DNA of 64,000 bases from Leifsonia sp. 466MF (lineage in GTDB: Bacteria; Actinomycetota; Actinomycetes; Actinomycetales; Microbacteriaceae): assembly GCF_900100265.1 (NCBI RefSeq), contig NZ_LT629696.1:3658001-3722000 (forward strand), given 5' to 3'. Positions 15,594-25,928 of the stretch are shown here, piece by piece (the first letter of the stretch is position 1; each line of letters starts with the position of its first letter). The notes beneath the pieces were generated by a model. It was not told where the DNA came from and did no database searches. It saw only the letters and a program-made list of their open reading frames with translations. Made by a program: the position numbers and the translations under genes.

Positions 15594-17107
15594 CATCGGC
15601 GACACAGACGTCGGCGACGGCGTCGGCCCCGAAGAAGCCCAACAGCGCGCGCGTCCACGTGCAGCGGTTCGGCACCTTCCTCTCCAACATGGTGATGCCC
15701 AACATCGCCGCATTCATCGCGTGGGGCATCGTCACCGCGCTCTTCATCGACAAGGGTCCGTTCCCCAACAAGGACATCGCGAGCCTCGTCGGCCCGATGA
15801 TCACCTACCTGCTCCCGCTCCTCCTCGCCAACACCGGCGGCCGCCTCGTCTACGGCGTGCGCGGCGGTGTGGTGGGCACCATCGCGGCCATGGGCGTGAT
15901 CGTCGGCACCGACATCCCGATGTTCATCGGAGCGATGATCATGGGTCCGCTCGGCGGCTACCTGATGAAGCAGGTCGACCGCATCTGGGAGGGGAAGATC
16001 AAGGCGGGCTTCGAGATGCTCGTCAACAACTTCTCCGCCGGTATCCTCGGCTTCCTCCTTGCGATCGGCGCCTTCTTCGGCATCGCCCCGCTGGTGCAGG
16101 GTCTGAGCAAGGCGCTCGAAGCCGGTGTGGATTGGCTGGTGTCGGTCCACCTGCTCCCCCTGGTCAGCATCCTGGTCGAGCCGGGCAAGGTGCTGTTCCT
16201 CAACAACGCGATCAACCACGGTGTGTTCACGCCGATCGGCACACTGGAGTCGCAGCAGGCGGGCAAGTCGATCCTGTTCCTCATCGAGACGAACCCCGGC
16301 CCCGGTGCCGGAATCCTGCTCGCCTGGGCGATCTTCGGTCTCGGTGCGGCCCGCGCGGCCGCCCCGGGCGCCTTCATCATCCAGTTCTTCGGCGGCATCC
16401 ACGAGATCTACTTCCCGTACGTGCTCATGAAGCCCATCCTGATCATCGGCGCCATCCTCGGCGGCATGACCGGCGTCGCGGTGAACGTGGCCTTCCAGAC
16501 GGGCCTTCGAGCACCCGCTGCACCAGGATCGGTGTTCGCGATCTTCGCGCAGGCACCCGTCTCGAACATGCTCGGAATCGCCTTGGCGATCATCGCCGCT
16601 GCCGCGGTCTCGTTCACCTTCACCGCAGTCGTCCTGCGATCCAGCCGCAAGCGCGACCTGCTGGCCGGCAACGCCGGCGACCTGTCGGCCGCCGTCGCCC
16701 AGACCGAGGCGAACAAGGGCAAGTCCTCCTCGGTGCTCGGCGGCCTCGTCGACGAGGCCGAGCACGACACCGGCGACGCCCAGGGCGACGCCACGGATCG
16801 ACTGGTGCGCAACATCGTCTTCGCGTGCGACGCTGGCATGGGTTCGAGCGCGATGGGCGCATCGGTGCTCCGCAACAAGATGAAGAAGGCCGGAGTGGAG
16901 GGGGTCACGGTCACGAACCAGGCGATCAGCAACCTCGACGGAACGGCCGACCTGGTCATCACGCAGCAGCAGCTGACGGACCGCGCCAAGGGCCAGTCGC
17001 CCGACTCGATCCACGTCTCGGTCGACAACTTCATGAACAGCCCCAAGTACGACGAGGTCGTCGACCTCGTCAAGAACCAGCGAACCACGGAGGACGCCAA
17101 CAAATGA
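15590..17107 (+). CDS. mtlA: PTS mannitol transporter subunit EIICB
   Basis: Mannitol permease that phosphorylates its substrate during uptake, giving mannitol-1-phosphate inside the cell. 505 residues: membrane EIIC domain (about 25-350) with FGGIHEIYFPYVLMKP, the mannitol-family substrate motif, and N-H-G-V-F-T-P-I; a linker; then EIIB (about 405-505) with phosphocysteine Cys413 in FACDAGMGSSAMG. The EIIA domain that is fused in E. coli MtlA is here a separate gene immediately downstream. ATGA overlaps occur with both neighbours. Confidence 0.96.
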   Translation: MTSATQTSATASAPKKPNSARVHVQRFGTFLSNMVMPNIAAFIAWGIVTALFIDKGPFPNKDIASLVGPMITYLLPLLLANTGGRLVYGVRGGVVGTIAAMGVIVGTDIPMFIGAMIMGPLGGYLMKQVDRIWEGKIKAGFEMLVNNFSAGILGFLLAIGAFFGIAPLVQGLSKALEAGVDWLVSVHLLPLVSILVEPGKVLFLNNAINHGVFTPIGTLESQQAGKSILFLIETNPGPGAGILLAWAIFGLGAARAAAPGAFIIQFFGGIHEIYFPYVLMKPILIIGAILGGMTGVAVNVAFQTGLRAPAAPGSVFAIFAQAPVSNMLGIALAIIAAAAVSFTFTAVVLRSSRKRDLLAGNAGDLSAAVAQTEANKGKSSSVLGGLVDEAEHDTGDAQGDATDRLVRNIVFACDAGMGSSAMGASVLRNKMKKAGVEGVTVTNQAISNLDGTADLVITQQQLTDRAKGQSPDSIHVSVDNFMNSPKYDEVVDLVKNQRTTEDANK

Positions 17108-17541
17108 CCGACACGATTCTCGACCGGGCGAACGTCGTGGCCGCGGGCACCGCGACCACGCGGGAGGACGCGATCCGGGAGGCGGGTGAGCTGCTCGTGC
17201 AGGCGGGCGCCGTCGAGCCGGGTTACGTCGACTCGATGCAGGAGCGCGAGAACACCGTCTCCACCTTCATGGGGAACGGCCTCGCCATCCCGCACGGCAC
17301 CAACGAGTCCAAGGACGAGATCAAGCGGTCCGCGCTCTCCTTCATCCGCTACTCCTCGCCGCTCGACTGGGGCGGCGAGGAGGTGCGGTTCGTGGTCGGC
17401 ATCGCCGGCCAGAACAATGAGCACCTCGAGATCCTGTCGAAGATCGCCATCCTGTTCTCGGAGGAGGACGATGTCCAGAAGCTGCTCGACGCCCCCGACG
17501 CCGAGGCGCTGTACACGCTGTTGGGAGATGTGAACGAGTGA
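17104..17541 (+). CDS. mtlF: PTS mannitol transporter subunit EIIA
   Basis: 145-residue cytoplasmic phosphocarrier that takes phosphate from HPr and passes it to the EIIB cysteine of MtlA. The active-site histidine is His64 in [12 protein letters not shown], the standard EIIA(Mtl) motif. The ATG at 17104 overlaps the stop of the EIICB gene (ATGA), and its own stop overlaps the GTG of the dehydrogenase gene (GTGA). This layout keeps the subunits in fixed ratio. Confidence 0.95.
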
Positions 17542-18710
17542 AGGCCGTCCACTTCGGAGCCGGCAACATCGGACGCGGCTTCGTGGGGCTCCTGCTCCAC
17601 GAAGCCGGGTACGAGGTCGTGTTCGCGGACGTCAATGCCGAGCTCATCGACGCCCTCGCCGCGGCGGACTCGTACCGCGTCCACCTGGTCGGTGAGGACT
17701 CGGAGACGAAGACCGTCACCGGGTTCCGCGCGATCAACAGCGCGACCGAGGAGGATGCGCTGGTCGCCGAGATCGCCTCGGCCGACGTGGTGACGACGGC
17801 GGTGGGTCCGCGCATCCTCCGCTTCGTCGCCCCGGTGATCGCCCGCGGTCTGGCCGCTCGGGCGGACGACGCGCCCCGCCTGGCCGTAATGGCCTGCGAG
17901 AACGCGATCGGCGCCTCGGACCTGCTGGCGGCGGAGCTCATGGACGGGCTCCCGGACGACGACACCCGCGAGCAGCTGGCCGCGCGTGCGGTGTTCGCGA
18001 ACACGGCCGTCGACCGCATCGTCCCCGCGCAGGCGGCGGACGCCGGGATCGACGTGACCGTCGAGACGTTCTACGAGTGGGTCGTCGACCGTTCGCCGTT
18101 CGCCGGGCACGCGCCCGAGATCCCGGGCGCCCACTTCGTCGACTCACTCGGCCCGTACATCGAGCGGAAGCTGTTCACGGTCAACACCGGGCACGCGACC
18201 GTGGCATACACAGGCTTCCTTCACGGGGCCACCACGATCAGCGAGGCCATCGCGATCCCCGCCGTACGGGAGGCGGCAGAGGCCGCTCTGCGCGAGACCT
18301 CGGCGGCGCTCAGCGCCAAGCACGGGCTGCCGGAGGAGGAGCTCGCCGCGTACCGCGCAAAGATCCTGGGCCGGTTCGCGAACCCGTACCTGGTCGACGA
18401 GGTCACTCGCGTCGGGCGCGAGCCCATCCGCAAGCTCGGCAGGAACGACCGCTTCATCGGTCCGGCTTCCGACTACGCGGAGCACGTCGGCGGCATCCCG
18501 ACGGCCCTGATCCAGGCAGTCGGCTCCGCCCTGCGGTTCGATGTGCTCGAGGACACACAGAGCGTCGAGCTGCTCAAGCTGCTCGACGAGGCCGAGCCGG
18601 CCGCGATCGTCGAAGAGGTCATGGGCGTAGAGCCCGGCGAACCGCTCCACGAGCCGCTCGTCGAGACCGTCGCCCTGGCTCAGCAGGAGCGCTTGGACGC
18701 GGCGCTCTGA
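17538..18710 (+). CDS. mtlD: Mannitol-1-phosphate 5-dehydrogenase
   Basis: NAD-dependent enzyme oxidising mannitol-1-phosphate to fructose-6-phosphate, the entry to glycolysis. 390 residues, typical of the polyol long-chain dehydrogenases. The N-terminal [13 protein letters not shown] is the dinucleotide-binding glycine motif. The family signature around [20 protein letters not shown] contains the Asn and His of the catalytic region. GTG start is inside the EIIA stop (GTGA). Last gene of the operon; a G+C-rich hairpin follows. Confidence 0.95.
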
Positions 18711-18806: not shown

Positions 18807-19997
18807 GTGAGCCGAATCGTGTCGGTGGCCCCGGTGCTCCCCGCCCGGAGCTACAGCCAAGGGGAGATCACCGCCGCGCTGCTCGCGATGATCACGTCGG
18901 ACCCCGCCAGGCAGCAGGTGATGCGCCGCATCCACGCCTCCTCCGGTGTGCAGACCCGCAGCCTCGTGATGCCCCTCGAGCGTTACAGTTCGCTGGCCTC
19001 GTTCCAGGAGTCGAACGACTTCTTCATCGCCGAGGGGACGACGCTGGCCGAGCGCGCCGTGACCGCGGCCCTCGACTCCGCCGGTCTCGCGCCCACCGAC
19101 GTCGACTTCCTGCTCTTCACCTCGGTGACCGGCATCGCCGCCCCCTCCATCGACGCGCAGCTGGTGTCGCGGCTGGGCCTGCGCACCGACGTCAAGCGTC
19201 TCCCGAGCTTCGGGCTGGGATGCGTCGCCGGCGCCGCCGGGATCGCCCGCGTCAACGACTACCTCGCTGGCCACCCGGACGAGGTGGCCATCCTGTTGTC
19301 CGTGGAGCTGTGCTCGCTCACCGTGCAGGCGAGCGACGACTCCATGGCGAACATCGTCGCGAGCGGCCTGTTCGGCGACGGCGCCGCCGCCGTCGTCATG
19401 GTCGGCGACCGGCGCGCTGAGAAGCTGGGGCTGGCCGGACCCGACGTCGTCGACTCGCGCAGCCACATCTACCCGGACACCGCTGACGTGATCGGCTGGG
19501 ACATCGGCGGCACCGGCTTCCGGATCGTCCTGAGCGCGGGCGTGCCCGAGGTCATCGAGCGCAACTTCGCCGGAGACGCCCGCGGCATCCTCGCCGCCCA
19601 CGATCTGGAGGTGTCGGACGTCGGCGCCTGGGCCGCGCATCCCGGTGGGCCGAAGGTGCTGGAAGCGTTCTCGCAGGCCCTCGACCTGCCCGACGGCGCC
19701 CTCGACGCCAGCTGGCGCTCGCTCGCGAACGTCGGCAACCTGTCCTCGGCGGCGGTGCTGCACGTGCTGGCGGAACAGCTGGATGCGCACGCAGCCGGCA
19801 CCATCGGGCTGCTGTTCGCGCTCGGCCCGGGGGTGACGAGCGAGCTCGTCCTGCTGCGCTGGGCGGATGGCGCAGAGCGGTCGGGGCTGGTCTCCGTGCC
19901 GGCCGCGCTGCCCGCCGCGGTCGAGGCTGGCGCGCCCGCCGCATCCACCGCCCCCGCCGCGCTTCCCGCGGCCGCCATGATCGACCCGGTCCCGTGA
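18807..19997 (+). CDS. Type III polyketide synthase (alkylresorcinol/alkylpyrone synthase-like)
   Basis: Homodimeric chalcone-synthase-fold enzyme that extends an acyl starter with malonyl-CoA and cyclises the chain. 396 residues with the catalytic triad Cys139 (FGLGCVAGA), His278 (AAHPGGPK) and Asn311 (NVGNLSSA). The last 45 or so residues are an Ala/Pro-rich tail not needed for the fold. GTG start lies 6 bases after TACGTT (18795-18800). It heads a three-gene coupled operon with an ICMT-like methyltransferase and an FAD monooxygenase, the same enzyme set as srsA-srsB-srsC of Streptomyces griseus, which makes phenolic lipids. The product here is inferred. Confidence 0.92.
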   Translation: MSRIVSVAPVLPARSYSQGEITAALLAMITSDPARQQVMRRIHASSGVQTRSLVMPLERYSSLASFQESNDFFIAEGTTLAERAVTAALDSAGLAPTDVDFLLFTSVTGIAAPSIDAQLVSRLGLRTDVKRLPSFGLGCVAGAAGIARVNDYLAGHPDEVAILLSVELCSLTVQASDDSMANIVASGLFGDGAAAVVMVGDRRAEKLGLAGPDVVDSRSHIYPDTADVIGWDIGGTGFRIVLSAGVPEVIERNFAGDARGILAAHDLEVSDVGAWAAHPGGPKVLEAFSQALDLPDGALDASWRSLANVGNLSSAAVLHVLAEQLDAHAAGTIGLLFALGPGVTSELVLLRWADGAERSGLVSVPAALPAAVEAGAPAASTAPAALPAAAMIDPVP

Positions 19998-20521
19998 TCT
20001 GGTACACCGTTCTCGTCCTCGCGACGGGCGCAGAACGCATCGCCGAGCTGATCGTCTCGACCCGCAATGCGAAGTGGTCGTTCGCCCGCGGCGGCGTGGA
20101 GTTCGGCAAGGGGCACTTCCCGCCGATGGTCGCGCTCCACACCGGGCTGCTGCTGGCGTGTCTGGCGGAGGTCTGGTTCGCCGACCGGCCCTTCCTTCCG
20201 TGGCTCGGCTGGCCGATGCTCGTGCTGGTGCTCGCCAGCCAGGCGCTGCGCTGGTGGTGCATCGCCACGCTCGGTCCGCGCTGGAACACGCGCGTGATCG
20301 TCGTGCGCGACCTGCCGCTCGTGACCGGCGGACCCTACCGCTGGCTGAAGCACCCGAACTACGTCGCGGTGGTCGTCGAGGGCTTCGCCCTTCCGCTGGT
20401 CCACACCGCCTGGATCACGGCTCTCGTGTTCACGGTGCTGAACGCCTGGCTGCTCGTGGTGCGCATCCGCTGCGAGAACCGGGCGCTCGCCACCGTGCTC
20501 GCCGCACCGGCACGCACATGA
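19994..20521 (+). CDS. Isoprenylcysteine carboxyl methyltransferase family protein (SrsB-like)
   Basis: Integral membrane methyltransferase of 175 residues with about five helices. The C-terminal half carries the SAM-binding features of the ICMT family: VTGGPYRWLKHPNYVAVVVEG (arginine/histidine-rich GPYR-x-x-x-HPNY) and the terminal R-x-x-C-E-N-R. In type III PKS operons such proteins methylate phenolic hydroxyls of the alkylresorcinol product rather than prenyl-cysteine. GTG start overlaps the PKS stop, and its stop overlaps the next start (ATGA), so all three enzymes are translated together. Confidence 0.9.
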   Translation: MIWYTVLVLATGAERIAELIVSTRNAKWSFARGGVEFGKGHFPPMVALHTGLLLACLAEVWFADRPFLPWLGWPMLVLVLASQALRWWCIATLGPRWNTRVIVVRDLPLVTGGPYRWLKHPNYVAVVVEGFALPLVHTAWITALVFTVLNAWLLVVRIRCENRALATVLAAPART

Positions 20522-21558
20522 ACCCGCGGGTCGTCGTGGTCGGGGGCGGCCCCATCGGCCTCGCCTGCGCCATCGAGGCACGCGTGGACGGCCTGGAGGT
20601 CGTCCTCGTGGAGCCGCGGGTGGGGCCGATCGACAAGGCGTGCGGAGAGGGCCTGATGCCGGGAGCGCTGGCCGCACTGCACCGGATCGGGGTCGATCCC
20701 GCCGGGAGGCGGCTCGACGGCGTCGCGTACATCGACGCGGGATCCCGCGTCGAGCACCGCTTCGCGGAGCGCCCGGGGCGGGGCGTGCGACGCACCGTGC
20801 TGCACCAGGCTCTGGCGGAGCGGGCGTCCGAGCTGGGCGCTCAGCGCATCCACGCCAGGGTCACCGGACTCAGCCAGGACGCCGGCGGGGTCGACCTGAC
20901 CCTGAGCGACGGCGAGACACTGCGTGCACCCTGGGTGATCGCGGCCGACGGCCTGCACTCGCCGGTGCGTCGCATGCTTCGGCTGGACGGGCGTGCGCAG
21001 CCCGGCACGCGGAGGCGGTTCGGCCTGCGGAAGCACTTCGCCGTCGAACCGTGGACGTCGCTGGTGGAGGTGCACTGGTCTGCTGGGGCCGAGGCGTACG
21101 TGACCCCCGTCGACGAGCGCCTGGTCGGCGTCGCCGTGCTCGGCTCGCGGCCCCTCGATGTGGATGAGGTGATCGCGGGCATCCCCGAGCTCGCCGAACG
21201 CCTGCACGGCGCCGAGGTGGTGACCGACCCTCGCGGGGCAGGACCCCTGCTGCAGCGGGCGCGCTCGCGGGCCTCGGGGCGGGTGCTGCTGGCGGGCGAC
21301 GCCTCCGGCTATGTGGACGCCCTGACCGGCGAGGGGATGCGCGTGGGCTTCGCTCAGGCGCGAGCGGCCGTCGCCGCGGTCACCATGGGGAACACAGAGC
21401 AGTACGAGCGGGCCTGGCGGGCGACGACACGGGATTTCCGCATGCTCACCTCCGCTCTGGTCGTGGCGGCGCGCTCGCGCTTCCGGCCGCGGATCGTGCC
21501 GACCGCCGCTCGTCGCCCCGAGCTGTTCGGCTCGATCGTGGAGCGCCTCTCGCACTGA
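20518..21558 (+). CDS. FAD-dependent monooxygenase (SrsC-like)
   Basis: Flavoprotein hydroxylase of 346 residues. The N-terminal VVVVGGGPIGLACAIEA is the GxGxxG dinucleotide motif. KACGEGLMPGAL resembles the second conserved region of the geranylgeranyl-reductase/UbiH-like group, and GRVLLAGDASGYVDALTGEGM is the FAD-ribityl-binding GD motif. In the S. griseus phenolic-lipid operon the equivalent enzyme hydroxylates the methylated resorcinol to a quinone. ATG at 20518 overlaps the methyltransferase stop (ATGA). No terminator is obvious in the 188-base gap downstream. Confidence 0.9.
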   Translation: MNPRVVVVGGGPIGLACAIEARVDGLEVVLVEPRVGPIDKACGEGLMPGALAALHRIGVDPAGRRLDGVAYIDAGSRVEHRFAERPGRGVRRTVLHQALAERASELGAQRIHARVTGLSQDAGGVDLTLSDGETLRAPWVIAADGLHSPVRRMLRLDGRAQPGTRRRFGLRKHFAVEPWTSLVEVHWSAGAEAYVTPVDERLVGVAVLGSRPLDVDEVIAGIPELAERLHGAEVVTDPRGAGPLLQRARSRASGRVLLAGDASGYVDALTGEGMRVGFAQARAAVAAVTMGNTEQYERAWRATTRDFRMLTSALVVAARSRFRPRIVPTAARRPELFGSIVERLSH

Positions 21559-22065: not shown

Positions 22066-22106
22066 TCCCGGCACGTCGACGGCTGGGGAGCGTCGACGTG
22101 CCGGGA
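22066..22106. terminator. Bidirectional terminator hairpin
   Basis: TCCCGGCACGTCGAC (22066-22080) and GTCGACGTGCCGGGA (22092-22106) form a perfect 15-bp stem with an 11-base loop. It sits between the convergent ribbon-helix-helix-like gene and the chaplin-like gene. Confidence 0.85.
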
Positions 22107-22136: not shown

Positions 22137-23624
22137 TCACCGGGTGTGGTGGCGGCGCGTCCGGTTGGCGGACACGAACGCCAGCATCACTCCGAGGAGA
22201 GCGAGGAGGGCGCCCAGGGCGCCGACACCCAGCTCGTTGGAACCGGTGGAGGCGAGGGCCGCAGCCCCCGACCCGCTGCCCGCGGCCAGCGACATGATCC
22301 CGCCCGCGGACGCCGTCACAATGCCGGCACCGGTGCCACCCGTGGTCGGGGTGGTCGGAGTCGTCGGGGTGGTCGGAGTCGTGGGCGTGGTCGGGGTGGT
22401 CGGGTCAGTCGGGTCGGTCGGGGTGGTCGGCGTCGTGGTGGAGCCGGTGGTGGTGCTGTCGCCGACGACGCTGATCGCGTTGCCGCCGACGGTCACGGGA
22501 ACGTCCACACCGATCGGCAGGTCGATTCCGCCGAGGGTGCCGTCGCCGGTGGTCCCACCGGTCGTCCCACCGCCGGTCGCCGGGGCGCTGGTGGAGGATC
22601 CGGCCGAGGTGGAGTCACCGACCACCGAGACCGCGTTACCGCCCGCCGTCACCGGCACAGCAGCATCGATCGGAGCCTGGATGCCGGACAGCAGCCCGCC
22701 ATCCGAACCAGAACCCGACGTGGTGCTGCCGCTACCGGCAGCCGGAGCCGCCGTGTCCGAACCCGACGTCGTCGAGTCACCGACCACCGAGACCGCGTTC
22801 CCGCCGGCCGTCACCGGCACAGCAGCATCGATCGGAGCCTGAACACCCGACAGGATGCCACCATCCGAACCAGAACCCGACGTGGTGCTCCCGCTACCGG
22901 CAGCCGGAGCGGTCGTCTCCGAGCCCGAGGACTGCGAGTCGCCGAGGACGGAGATCGCATTGCCGCCGACCGTCACCGGCACTGCGGCGTCGATCGGAGC
23001 CTGGATGTCGGAGAGCAGTCCGCCGTCCGAGCCGGAGCTCGACGCCGTCGCCGACGAGCCGGAACCCACGGCGGGGGCCGTGGCCGACGAATCGGTCGAC
23101 GTCGAGTCGCCGAGGACCGAGATGGCGTTGCCACCGGCGGTCACCGGAACATCCACCGCCACAGGTGCCTGGATGCCCGACGCCACGCCGTCCGAACCAT
23201 CGGAGGTGGCGCTCGCTCCCGAGTCGGCGGGCGCCGGAGCGGCAGCCGAATCGGATCCGGAACTGGTGGAGTCACCGAGGACGCTCACCGAGTTCCCCGC
23301 CACCGTCACCGGGACGCTGACCGAGGCCACCGCCTGGTCGCCGCTGAGGACGCCGCCGATCGAGTCGGGCGAGATGGACACCGAGGGAGCCGCCGGTGCC
23401 GCCGGAGCCGCGGCGGTGGAGCCGCTGCTCGTCGAGTCGCCGAGGACCGAGATGCCGTTGCCCGAGAGGGACACCGGAACCGTGACGCCGACGACCGCCT
23501 GGTCGCCGCTCGCGACGCCGTCGCTGCTGGGAGCCTCGGCCGCGTTGGCCGCGGCCGTTCCGGCGAGCCACAGGCCGCCGACGCAGAGGGTGAACCACAT
23601 CCCTCTGGATACGTACTTGTTCAT
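22137..23624 (-). CDS. Seven-repeat chaplin-like surface protein with sortase signal
   Basis: Exported wall-anchored protein of 495 residues. Signal peptide 1-29; seven chaplin-like repeats at about 36-65, 91-121, 146-175, 201-230, 256-285, 309-338 and 362-390, each following the pattern G-(I/V)-x-S-G-x-Q-x(6)-V-P-V-x(4)-G-N-x-(I/V)-S-V-(L/V)-G-D-S; a Thr/Pro repeat (about 394-428); and a C-terminal LASTG sorting motif (457-461), hydrophobic helix and Arg/His tail. Chaplins are amyloid-forming surfactants of Streptomyces; long chaplins have two domains and an LAxTG signal. These repeats lack the paired cysteines of most chaplins. The ATG at 23624 has AAAGG upstream. No sortase is in the window. 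Confidence 0.85.
   Translation of the reverse strand: MNKYVSRGMWFTLCVGGLWLAGTAAANAAEAPSSDGVASGDQAVVGVTVPVSLSGNGISVLGDSTSSGSTAAAPAAPAAPSVSISPDSIGGVLSGDQAVASVSVPVTVAGNSVSVLGDSTSSGSDSAAAPAPADSGASATSDGSDGVASGIQAPVAVDVPVTAGGNAISVLGDSTSTDSSATAPAVGSGSSATASSSGSDGGLLSDIQAPIDAAVPVTVGGNAISVLGDSQSSGSETTAPAAGSGSTTSGSGSDGGILSGVQAPIDAAVPVTAGGNAVSVVGDSTTSGSDTAAPAAGSGSTTSGSGSDGGLLSGIQAPIDAAVPVTAGGNAVSVVGDSTSAGSSTSAPATGGGTTGGTTGDGTLGGIDLPIGVDVPVTVGGNAISVVGDSTTTGSTTTPTTPTDPTDPTTPTTPTTPTTPTTPTTPTTGGTGAGIVTASAGGIMSLAAGSGSGAAALASTGSNELGVGALGALLALLGVMLAFVSANRTRRHHTR
22342..22440. repeat. Thr/Pro tandem repeat in the chaplin-like gene
   Basis: GGTCGGAGTCGTC-like short tandem units encode PTTPTTP-type wall-spanning linker on the minus strand. 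It is of low complexity and prone to length change. Confidence 0.75.
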
Positions 23625-23714
23625 GATCAAGCCTTTCGAATGAGTGTCTGCGCCCGGGCATGAGGATGCCGGGCGGATGGTCGCGTGCTGCCTCAGAGGG
23701 CAGCGGCGACCCAC

Positions 23715-24674
23715 TCAGTCGGGGCTGATGTCGTGATCGGCGACGGGAGCCGCGGGGATGCGGTCATCCGCGGCAGCGCCGATGCGCCCGCTCCACGCGG
23801 AGCCGGGCAGGAGGAAACCGTCGGCCGTCGCGGCCGCACCGGGCGCAGCTCCGCCCGGGCCGCCGGAACCACCGGTCGTACCGGCGGTCCCGCCACCGGG
23901 CAGACCACCGCCCGGCAGGCCACCGCCAGGAAGACCTCCGGGCGCGTCTGAGGGCGCACCACCGGCTCCGGCTCCAGACGGGGCGACGAGCCCCGCGCCC
24001 GCGACGAAGGACGTGGCACCGGTCGCGGCGAGCAGCCCGAGAGCGGCACCGGCCGGCACCGCTGCAGTGGCCGGGCCGGCCGCTGCACCAGGCGAGAGAA
24101 GGGATCCGAGGAGGTCCGTACCGTCGGACACCGTGGTGCCCGGGTCAGGCACGGGAAGCGCGGCGGCGGGAGGAGTCAGCGGCGTCACGGCCGTGTCGAC
24201 CGCGCCCACGACATCCGACACCGCCTGGTCGACGCCACCGGTGACCGGCTGCGTGACCGATGAGACCGGGGCCGGCGGGAGGATGTCGCTGACGATCGGC
24301 ACCTGCGCGACGACCTGGTCCACCACATCCACCACCGGGTCGACCGTGCTCGAGACCGGCGACTGCTCGGCGACCTGGTCGACCGTGTCGGTGACCGGGG
24401 TCACCACCGCGGAGACGACCTGCTGCACGGGCTCGGGGACGACCGGCGCGACGGCCGAGGTGACCGATCCGAGGACGTGTCCCACGGCTCCGGTCGCGTT
24501 CGATACGACCGCCGAGACGGGCGAGGACGGCGGGGCCGGTTCGGCCGCAGAGGCCGGCGAGCCTCCCATCAGGAAGCCGAGGACGGTCAGGCCGGCGCCG
24601 GCGATCAGAGAGCCGATCAGCACGCGCGCAGGGCTGACCTGGCGCGGGTGCAGCTGCTGAGCAGCATCCGGCAT
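23715..24674 (-). CDS. Secreted hypothetical protein next to the chaplin-like gene
   Basis: 319 residues. A membrane/signal segment (about 18-43, ending SPASAAEP) targets it outside. The middle (about 50-170) repeats V-x-x-V-D-x-V/P-V-T patterns with many Val and Pro, and the C-terminal half is Ala/Gly-rich with GGLPGGGLPGGG repeats. No sorting motif or second membrane segment is evident. GGGGGTGATC supports the ATG. It lies 90 bases upstream of the chaplin-like gene on the same strand, so the two may be co-expressed surface proteins. I do not recognise the family. Confidence 0.7.
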   Translation of the reverse strand: MPDAAQQLHPRQVSPARVLIGSLIAGAGLTVLGFLMGGSPASAAEPAPPSSPVSAVVSNATGAVGHVLGSVTSAVAPVVPEPVQQVVSAVVTPVTDTVDQVAEQSPVSSTVDPVVDVVDQVVAQVPIVSDILPPAPVSSVTQPVTGGVDQAVSDVVGAVDTAVTPLTPPAAALPVPDPGTTVSDGTDLLGSLLSPGAAAGPATAAVPAGAALGLLAATGATSFVAGAGLVAPSGAGAGGAPSDAPGGLPGGGLPGGGLPGGGTAGTTGGSGGPGGAAPGAAATADGFLLPGSAWSGRIGAAADDRIPAAPVADHDISPD

Positions 24675-24725
24675 ACGATCACCCCCTGACCGTTCGAGAC
24701 AAGGGGGACTGTACTCCGCCGTCTA

Positions 24726-25928
24726 CTAGAACGGAAGCGATGCGTCCGAAGTCGCGATCTCGGCGCGTTCGTCGCGCGACGAGCGGCGACGGGATGCGGC
24801 CGCCGCGATCGCGATGACGACGAGGGCTCCCACCGTCATCGCGGCGCCCACCCACAGGGGCGACGTGTAGCCGAGACCCGCCGCGATGGTGAGGCCGCCC
24901 AGCCAGGCGCCCAGAGCGTTGCCGAGGTTGAAGGCGGCGATGTTCCCGCCCGAGGCGAGGGTCGGTGCGTGGGAGGCGTAGGAGAGGACCCGCAGCTGGA
25001 GGGCCGGGACGGTCGCGAAGCCGAACGCTCCCATGAGCACGAGGGCGATCACCGCACCGACCGGGATCCCGGCGACCAGGGCGAAGCCCACCAGCACGAC
25101 GGCGAGAGCACCGAGCAGCCAGAGCAGCGTCCCGTCGATGGAGCGGTCGGCCAGGCGGCCGCCCACCCAGTTGCCCGCGAACAGCCCCAGCCCGAAGAGG
25201 ATGAGGAGCCACGGAACCGCGGACGAGGGGAATCCGGAGACGCCGGTGAGCGTGTAGGCGATGTAGGTGAAGGCGCCGAACATCCCACCGAAACCGAGCA
25301 CGGTCGCGGCCAGCGAGAGCCACACCTGCCCGGACCGGAACGCCGATAGCTCGCCGCGGAGCCCGGCGGTCGGCCGGTCGCCGGCGTCGCGCGGCACGAG
25401 CAGGGCGACGCCGATAATCGCGGCCACGCCGATCACCGTGATGGCCCAGAACGTCGACCGCCAGCCGAAGGCCTGGCCGAGAAGGGTGCCGAACGGCACG
25501 CCGAGCACGTTCGCGGCGGTGAGCCCGGTGAACATGACGGCGATGGCACGCGCCTGCTTCTCCGGAGCGACGAGACCGGCGGCGACCACGGAGCCGATGC
25601 CGAAGAACGCGCCGTGGCAGAGTGCGGCGAGGATGCGCCCGGCGAGCATGACGCCGTAGTCCGGGGCGATCGCCGAGAGCAGGTTGCCCACGATGAAGAG
25701 CACCATCAGCCCGAGCAGTGCCGCCTTGCGCGGGATACGCGTGGCGGCGGCGGTGAGGCCGAGCGCGCCGACGACCACCGCGAGCGCGTACCCCGAGATC
25801 AGCCAGCCGGCGGTCGCCTCGTCGACGTGGAAGTCGGCGGCGACCTCGGGCAGGAGCCCGGCGATCACGAACTCGGTGAGTCCGATGCCGAACCCTCCGA
25901 GTGCGAGGGCGATCAGGCCAGCGGGCAT
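24726..25928 (-). CDS. MFS transporter (AraJ/DHA1-like drug or sugar efflux)
   Basis: Twelve-helix efflux transporter of 400 residues in the DHA1 branch. It begins LIALALGGFGIGLTEFVIAGLLPEVA, the helix 1 signature shared by AraJ, YdhP and chloramphenicol-resistance type exporters. GFATVPALQLRVL and LASGGNIAAFNLGNALGAWLGG are further family marks in the C-terminal half. A clear AAGGAGA precedes the ATG. It is divergent from a MarR regulator and both promoters carry inverted repeats, the usual design of a regulator controlling an efflux pump. Confidence 0.9.
   Translation of the reverse strand: MPAGLIALALGGFGIGLTEFVIAGLLPEVAADFHVDEATAGWLISGYALAVVVGALGLTAAATRIPRKAALLGLMVLFIVGNLLSAIAPDYGVMLAGRILAALCHGAFFGIGSVVAAGLVAPEKQARAIAVMFTGLTAANVLGVPFGTLLGQAFGWRSTFWAITVIGVAAIIGVALLVPRDAGDRPTAGLRGELSAFRSGQVWLSLAATVLGFGGMFGAFTYIAYTLTGVSGFPSSAVPWLLILFGLGLFAGNWVGGRLADRSIDGTLLWLLGALAVVLVGFALVAGIPVGAVIALVLMGAFGFATVPALQLRVLSYASHAPTLASGGNIAAFNLGNALGAWLGGLTIAAGLGYTSPLWVGAAMTVGALVVIAIAAAASRRRSSRDERAEIATSDASLPF

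Follow-up and report, generated by a model that had tools for sequence, protein, structure and literature searches.

A multi-repeat chaplin of Leifsonia sp. 466MF and the gene directly upstream of it, here called the partner, suggest a so far undescribed two-gene system for a bacterial surface coat. The pair is probably a surface-display module, in which the partner aids the export or assembly of a wall-anchored β-repeat coat protein. The conserved partner and the signal-peptide type linked to it are what is new relative to a first-pass annotation of the window (the whole stretch of 64,000 nucleotides that was analysed); the multi-repeat chaplin itself is no oddity. That annotation read the chaplin repeats, the sorting signal and the host correctly, mistook the lack of cysteines and the number of repeats for a peculiarity, and missed the upstream gene.

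The chaplin gene is laid out as follows (positions in the window).

22137..23624, minus strand: coding sequence of the multi-repeat chaplin, 495 residues plus stop, ATG start (open frame, PF03777 match)
23538..23624, minus strand: signal peptide of the module-specific type, residues 1-29, MNKYVSRGMWFTLCVGGLWLAGTAAANAA (secretion signal and cleavage site by inspection)
23433..23519, minus strand: chaplin repeat 1, residues 36-64 (repeat profile and our own chaplin HMM, as for all repeats below)
23268..23354, minus strand: chaplin repeat 2, residues 91-119
23103..23189, minus strand: chaplin repeat 3, residues 146-174, largely inside the best PF03777 stretch (residues 129-172)
22935..23021, minus strand: chaplin repeat 4, residues 202-230
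22773..22859, minus strand: chaplin repeat 5, residues 256-284
22611..22697, minus strand: chaplin repeat 6, residues 310-338, identical to repeat 5 at 27 of 29 residues
22455..22541, minus strand: chaplin repeat 7, residues 362-390
22335..22454, minus strand: Thr/Pro-rich spacer (from the sequence)
22242..22256, minus strand: LASTG sorting motif, residues 457-461, with a hydrophobic stretch and then RTRRHHTR behind it (from the sequence)

The closest database entry by identity (P0004; 97%, 351 residues) is not exactly the protein that the window encodes; it stops within the repeat region, with six repeats counted, and is either from a close relative or the result of an incompletely assembled repeat array. 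Elsewhere in the window, the plus strand at 18807-21558 carries a type III polyketide synthase, an ICMT-type methyltransferase and a FAD-dependent oxidoreductase in one run.

The repeat unit measures about 55 residues, and its 29-residue core ends in VPV...GN.(I/V)SV(L/V)GDS. Seven repeats of chaplin pattern had been claimed at first pass, and a search against the Pfam chaplin family had been named as the check; PF03777 (ChpA-C) indeed matches the 495-residue protein significantly, in seven stretches (E=3.8e-16, 59.1 bits, cut-off 21). For our own chaplin HMM we took 31 domain rows, one or more of them an antisense frame, from a genus that is rich in chaplins and presumably Streptomyces. This HMM scores the protein at 69.0 bits, far above 1000 shuffled controls (best 9.7 bits among 500 global and 3.8 bits among 500 local shuffles). 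All seven repeat alignments end at position 44 of the 56 in this model, with one GN per repeat; the LLNPAFGNxC part, which holds the third GN and the second Cys, is therefore absent from every repeat. The first Cys position of the domain is occupied by Ala, Gly or Ser. The three GN motifs of a full-length chaplin domain, spaced 12-13 residues apart, are found in none of the seven, nor is the pair of cysteines per domain, as no Cys follows residue 14. Judged by sequence, each repeat is thus a truncated chaplin. Residue 14, within the signal peptide, is the only Cys of the whole protein, and residues 30-495 contain 30 Asp, 3 Glu and 4 Arg with no Lys or Cys. Repeats 5 and 6 are nearly identical, as had been noted (27/29 amino acids, 77/87 nucleotides). 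Repeat 7 had been called the most divergent; the lowest summed pairwise identity belongs instead to repeat 1 (102 of 174; repeat 2 has 109 and repeat 7 has 110). At E<=10, every PF03777 match in the genome falls inside the 22137-23624 frame, and so no short chaplin was found there.

Lack of cysteines and a high number of repeats turned out to be common among the relatives of this protein. At E<=0.001 there are 237 homologues, fragments included, and among the best 120 of these each has 3-10 repeats and 114 have a Cys-free repeat region, which rules out uniqueness on either count. Within the last 80 residues of the same best 120 of 237, LAxTG occurs in 102, LPxTG in 2 and neither in 16. Public records give several of the relatives the name "chaplin family protein". 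At 80 named loci (see below), a single Cys occurs in the repeat region of 6 of 81 chaplin frames; elsewhere, the chaplin at locus L217 has 11 cysteines in its multi-repeat region and is an exception to the Cys-free rule. Two further loci are of interest in their own right. Microbacterium hydrocarbonoxydans has a very long chaplin-type frame with 16 repeat hits (L180, 7917-15746) and, on the other strand, an additional partner gene (16620-17723), and at L164 (7890-10221) the repeats are divided over two overlapping frames (6 + 5 hits), perhaps by a frameshift. PF03777 used alone undercounts such proteins, matching 21 of 28 congeners at E<=0.01 against 26 of 28 by repeat profile, and two of the 21 matches are weak and are not multi-repeat chaplins. 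In Streptomyces, too, two cysteines are usual rather than universal: according to passages of PMC3079736 and PMC13251363, the second ChpB domain is without them, and PMC3079736 describes, in part of its text, ChpE as devoid of both cysteines yet fibril-forming, and cysteines as dispensable for chaplin fibrils in vitro.

The repeat cores are hydrophobic (mean 0.77-0.87), β-prone relative to the spacers and better conserved than these, and their hydropathy is close to that of one Streptomyces-type domain. In an AlphaFold model of the chaplin, for which 27 sequences were used, each repeat has four or five short strands, at a pLDDT of mostly 50-80; mean pLDDT of the two models made in this work is 62.5 (chaplin) and 61.0. 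Foldseek returned nothing significant for either the chaplin or the partner model, and PDB sequence searches gave either three matches, confined to the C-terminal low-complexity part, or none. The repeats may form amyloid. The protein might instead be a flexible stalk or hydrophilic cushion, whose likeness to chaplins reflects ancestry only and which forms no ordered β assembly. The Ser/Gly/Ala/Thr-rich, disordered-looking spacers would suit such a protein, as would the loss of the third GN and second Cys from every repeat and the modest confidence of the model. We regard it as unlikely, given the hydrophobic and better conserved cores and the strands predicted in each repeat.

The LASTG motif named by the first-pass annotation stands at residues 457-461, behind the Thr/Pro spacer, and the class E sortase that the annotation had proposed looking for is present. 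Neither of the outcomes that would have overturned the annotation, no significant chaplin-family match for any repeat or no LAxTG-recognising sortase in the genome, was observed. The genome (4.14 Mb, one contig) contains one PF04203 match at E<=1, and this sortase belongs to class E (NF033747, 241.9 bits, cut-off 160), with SrtE1 (5cuw) among its PDB relatives. The features of a class E substrate are all there: LASTG, a predicted C-terminal helix at 465-493 and the basic RTRRHHTR tail. From a reading of the frames, the neighbours of the sortase gene are presumably a PASTA-domain protein, a glutamine amidotransferase, a CrgA-like protein and a rhomboid protease. The PF00746 profile gave no match over its cut-off in this genome. 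The guess of a probably non-sporulating host is also supported, since the closest named loci are from Leifsonia, which is not known to sporulate.

Directly upstream of the chaplin lies the partner gene.

23715..24674, minus strand: coding sequence of the partner, 319 residues, predicted to be secreted by inspection
24177..24521, minus strand: predicted amphipathic helices of the partner, residues 52-166 (AlphaFold model, hydrophobic moment)
23718..23768, minus strand: conserved C-terminal tail of the partner, DDRIPAAPVADHDISPD (comparison across loci)

The AlphaFold model of the partner (41 sequences) places helices within residues 52-166 (block pLDDT 64-86) and disorder beyond. These helices are strongly amphipathic, with a hydrophobic moment of 1.44-1.77 at 100 degrees, compared with 0.18-0.45 at 170. 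The partner of the window has no match in Pfam or NCBIfam with E<=0.01. Among 41 relatives there are scattered single weak matches to families that differ from one to the next; a phasin model is weakly matched by two of the 41, which agrees with amphipathic helices and is not evidence of descent. The tail follows the pattern DDxLPxSPVxDxDxSPD. In a set compiled without a filter on the ending, 76 of 77 tails end in PD; in a set of 103 tails, partly filtered for that ending, position -13 is Pro in 101, -5 is Asp in 96 and -16 is Asp or Glu in 102. Outside the window, the same genome encodes an apparently secreted partner-like paralogue that ends in PPGDHDVSPG (C1:4132891-4133763; L264 8889-9866, minus strand). 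No chaplin adjoins it, and the partner may therefore have other roles. A strict DNA pattern for the tail was found in 6 of 6 sampled congeners and in 0 of 293 other family genomes; we discarded this negative because the tail is present elsewhere, spelled differently. A search of the phylum with the partner profile, which undercounts as only 7 candidates were scored per genome, matched the Leifsonia genome itself and two further members of the family. It also gave four hits in distant genomes, all of them weak and partial (E 5e-8 to 4.6e-6), which we did not judge to be partners.

The partner and the chaplin occur together with great regularity. Within the genus, 26 of 28 genomes (including that of the window) have the partner. 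In each of these 26, the next gene downstream, in the same orientation, encodes a chaplin with 5-11 repeat hits and an LA(S/D/E)TG motif. The two remaining genomes are small (2.6-2.7 Mb); neither has a partner match genome-wide, and each has one weak PF03777 match with no repeat-profile hit within the surrounding 20 kb. Scanning genome contigs with the single protein gave no relative, and loci were obtained with alignment A1 instead, from which the best 80 of 377 named loci were taken. These 80 come from Leifsonia, Agromyces, Microbacterium, Agrococcus, Labedella, Humibacter, Schumannella, Cryobacterium, Frigoribacterium, Herbiconiux, Agreia, Okibacterium, Janibacter and a few MAGs. A partner HMM match lies directly upstream at 77 of them; of the others, L157 (Janibacter) and L172 have, on inspection, an upstream frame with the layout and tail of a partner, and L122 is cut by a contig end. 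In an order-level sample, PF03777 matched 12 genomes besides our own, and ten regions were inspected. A multi-repeat chaplin is present in nine, L220 lacking one, and the partner lies upstream in 9/9; four of these nine loci are from the same family, one is again Janibacter L157, and one is L217, whose chaplin has the 11 cysteines mentioned above.

An even sample of 100 genomes of the family gave the same picture. The partner profile matched 25 genomes and the chaplin profile 28, of which 24 were kept; in G062, G082, G089 and G124 only the low-complexity tail of the profile had been matched (positions about 303-442). Both genes were found by profile in 21 genomes and are adjacent, by coordinates, in 21/21. 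In the other three chaplin genomes, a region-only search detected a diverged partner upstream (E 6.5e-7, 2.7e-9 and 4e-21), so that with these the partner precedes the chaplin in 24/24. For the raw 21/3/4/72 table, Fisher's test yields p=1e-14 with relatedness ignored. Pairs can be inherited vertically, and our pairing counts are uncorrected for relatedness; partner and chaplin could in principle be neighbours through common descent only, with no functional link. We consider this very improbable. At 49 of the 80 named loci, where low-Arg frames only were compared, no other neighbour is convincingly conserved across genera, and the three small neighbour clusters found there are scattered in position. 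In addition, as described next, the pairing outlasts an exchange of the downstream protein, and partner and signal-peptide type coincide at 29/29 loci.

The signal peptide of the chaplin is of a type that goes with the partner. In the genome of the window, a profile of this type has a single match at E<=0.001, the chaplin itself (E=1.7e-14). A large profile, made from 77 of 81 chaplin signal peptides and searched against the 14,698 frames of the compared loci, recovered 91 of 94 chaplin frames at E<0.01 (training set included). Only five non-chaplin frames among the 14,698 had E<1, and all five are proteins encoded directly behind a partner (1.4e-10 to 2.6e-4; the next frame has 2.4). A small profile, made from 22 of these peptides, some perhaps from the sampled genomes, was searched against the 100 whole family genomes and gave 29 sites in 28 of them at E<=0.001. 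By coordinates or frame reading, all 29 sites are in the gene directly after a partner, and the 28 genomes comprise, without exception, the 24 that have a chaplin and the four that have the partner only. The latter have five loci (L327, L328, L329, L330 and L331) at which a large non-chaplin repeat protein lies directly downstream of the partner. No chaplin repeats were detectable in these five passengers, which begin with the same signal-peptide type as the chaplins and end in sorting signals (LAYTG, LPQTG, LASTG, LAMTG and LPATG). The L328 passenger has a collagen-like stretch. At 30 chaplin loci of the presumed Streptomyces genus, taken with 1.5 kb flanks, the module signal peptide was not found (best E=0.015), and neither was any frame with a partner-like ending, save one opposite-strand frame overlapping the chaplin.

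Survival of the pairing through passenger exchange suggests that the partner serves an export step of the signal-peptide class rather than the chaplin fold. The partner could also be a structural co-component of the coat, as rodlins are beside Streptomyces chaplins, within a polyvalent, wall-anchored amyloid or adhesive fibre. Both proteins look secreted, the repeats are hydrophobic and β-prone with the hydropathy of a Streptomyces-type domain, and the dispensability of cysteines for fibrils in vitro fits a fibre as well. We hold this to be somewhat unlikely: the predicted fold of the partner is helical, not β, and its position before five repeat proteins without detectable chaplin repeats suits a passenger-independent helper better.

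The partner and chaplin genes are closely spaced, and the sequences around them contain candidate control elements.

23625..23714, minus strand: intergenic region with predicted hairpins, then a GAAAGG ribosome-binding site (folding, sequence)
24708..24737, minus strand: promoter-like CTTCCG-N17-GTACAGT ahead of the partner gene; conservation within the genus is partial
22067..22105, minus strand: perfect 15-bp hairpin after the chaplin stop, with no T-run (folding, sequence)

The gap between the two genes is 80-98 nt in 26/26 genus loci. Folding was tested at 57 non-redundant loci outside the main Leifsonia group, drawn from 67 with a gap of 60-140 nt. Relative to dinucleotide shuffles, the folding energy of the gap has a mean z of -2.52, with 47 of 57 loci below -1.5; for equal-length coding controls on the two sides, mean z is -0.75 and -0.74, with 14 of 57 each below -1.5. 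Two-stem folds are not in excess (34 of 57 gaps against 30 and 36 controls), and for this reason we claim RNA structure, not a fixed two-hairpin shape. RNAalifold on a MAFFT alignment of the genus gaps gave six consensus pairs, three of them changed on both sides; in our opinion, the pairs are few because the stems are spelled differently and align poorly. The one Rfam match is sub-threshold and lies outside the gap. Upstream of the partner, the ribosome-binding site AGGGGGTGA is kept in 18 of the 19 congeners (of 26) that were aligned, CTTCCG-N15-19-GTAC in 13 of 19 and the exact CTTCCG-N17-GTACAGT in 7 of 19. The hairpin behind the chaplin is a possible end of the transcript.

Taken as a module, the pair most likely works as follows. 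The chaplin gene is the second of a conserved unit and would be cotranscribed with the partner, and the structured intergenic RNA would set the ratio of the two products. The long, Cys-free chaplin would be exported via its module-specific signal peptide, after which the class E sortase would attach it to peptidoglycan at LASTG; the seven short, β-rich, uncharged-to-acidic repeats would then be displayed as a coat or adhesive layer, making the surface sticky or hydrophobic. The partner is seen as a secreted protein in which some four predicted amphipathic helices are followed by a long, disordered Gly/Pro linker and an acidic conserved C-terminal tail. As a dedicated helper, it would maintain the solubility of the sticky repeat protein, or direct its targeting, up to export and anchoring. 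Its helices and free C-terminus may bind either the hydrophobic passenger or the export site, and it may then hand the passenger to the sortase. More tentatively, and at somewhat less than even odds, this may be a dedicated route by which Micrococcales-type actinobacteria export and assemble wall-anchored coat proteins: an amphipathic-helix helper with a DxSPD tail would be matched one-to-one with a protein bearing the fitting signal peptide, the passenger would be exchangeable, with truncated chaplins the commonest, and intercistronic RNA would set the ratio.

Chaplins are known as surfactants of the aerial growth of sporulating Streptomyces. Among the open-access titles and abstract openings surveyed, none deals with Leifsonia or Microbacterium chaplins or with this partner; in PMC8852316 and PMC5043138, to judge from portions of their text, "Chaplin" is an author's name. 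Chandra and Chater, in a passage of PMC4255298, note a chaplin-like gene in one non-sporulating Arthrobacter and consider that attachment may have come first. The system described here, which occurs in many Microbacteriaceae and some other Micrococcales, is simpler, as it consists of a single chaplin locus, a single sortase and the recurring partner. It allows the attachment-first question to be tested in bacteria that are unicellular and have little redundancy among these genes. How aggregation-prone wall proteins may exit without clogging the cell can be approached through the partner, its link to the signal-peptide type and the RNA element.

The closest known system is that of the long Streptomyces chaplins ChpA-C, which share with our protein the chaplin domain homology, a signal peptide, a C-terminal sorting signal and a class E sortase. 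ChpA-C have two full domains, whereas here there are seven truncated repeats (3 to 16 hits in relatives) without cysteines or the third GN; the upstream partner and the module signal-peptide type, which is not found at the 30 presumed Streptomyces loci, are further differences, as is the lack of a detected short chaplin in the genome. The short chaplin ChpE, which resembles our repeats in lacking both cysteines according to part of PMC3079736, differs in having a single domain and in not being sortase-anchored. Outside Streptomyces, CwpA and CwpB of Actinoplanes missouriensis are likewise SrtE-anchored hydrophobic surface proteins, but they have no chaplin domain by their authors' analysis, as given in an excerpt of PMC13251363. 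Like the partner, the rodlins RdlA and RdlB are secreted companions of chaplins; the partner, which is predicted to be helical and has no Pfam or NCBIfam match at the threshold given above, may differ from them. Finally, YSIRK/GxxS is a signal-peptide subtype of Firmicute wall-anchored proteins that is common to sortase substrates with different mature parts. By inspection, the chaplin signal peptide reads KYVSRGMWFTLCVGGLWLAG and does not contain that motif. The likeness is one of working only, a single signal-peptide subtype serving differing mature sortase substrates; the sequence and the phylum are other, and here the signal peptide is tied to a neighbouring partner gene.
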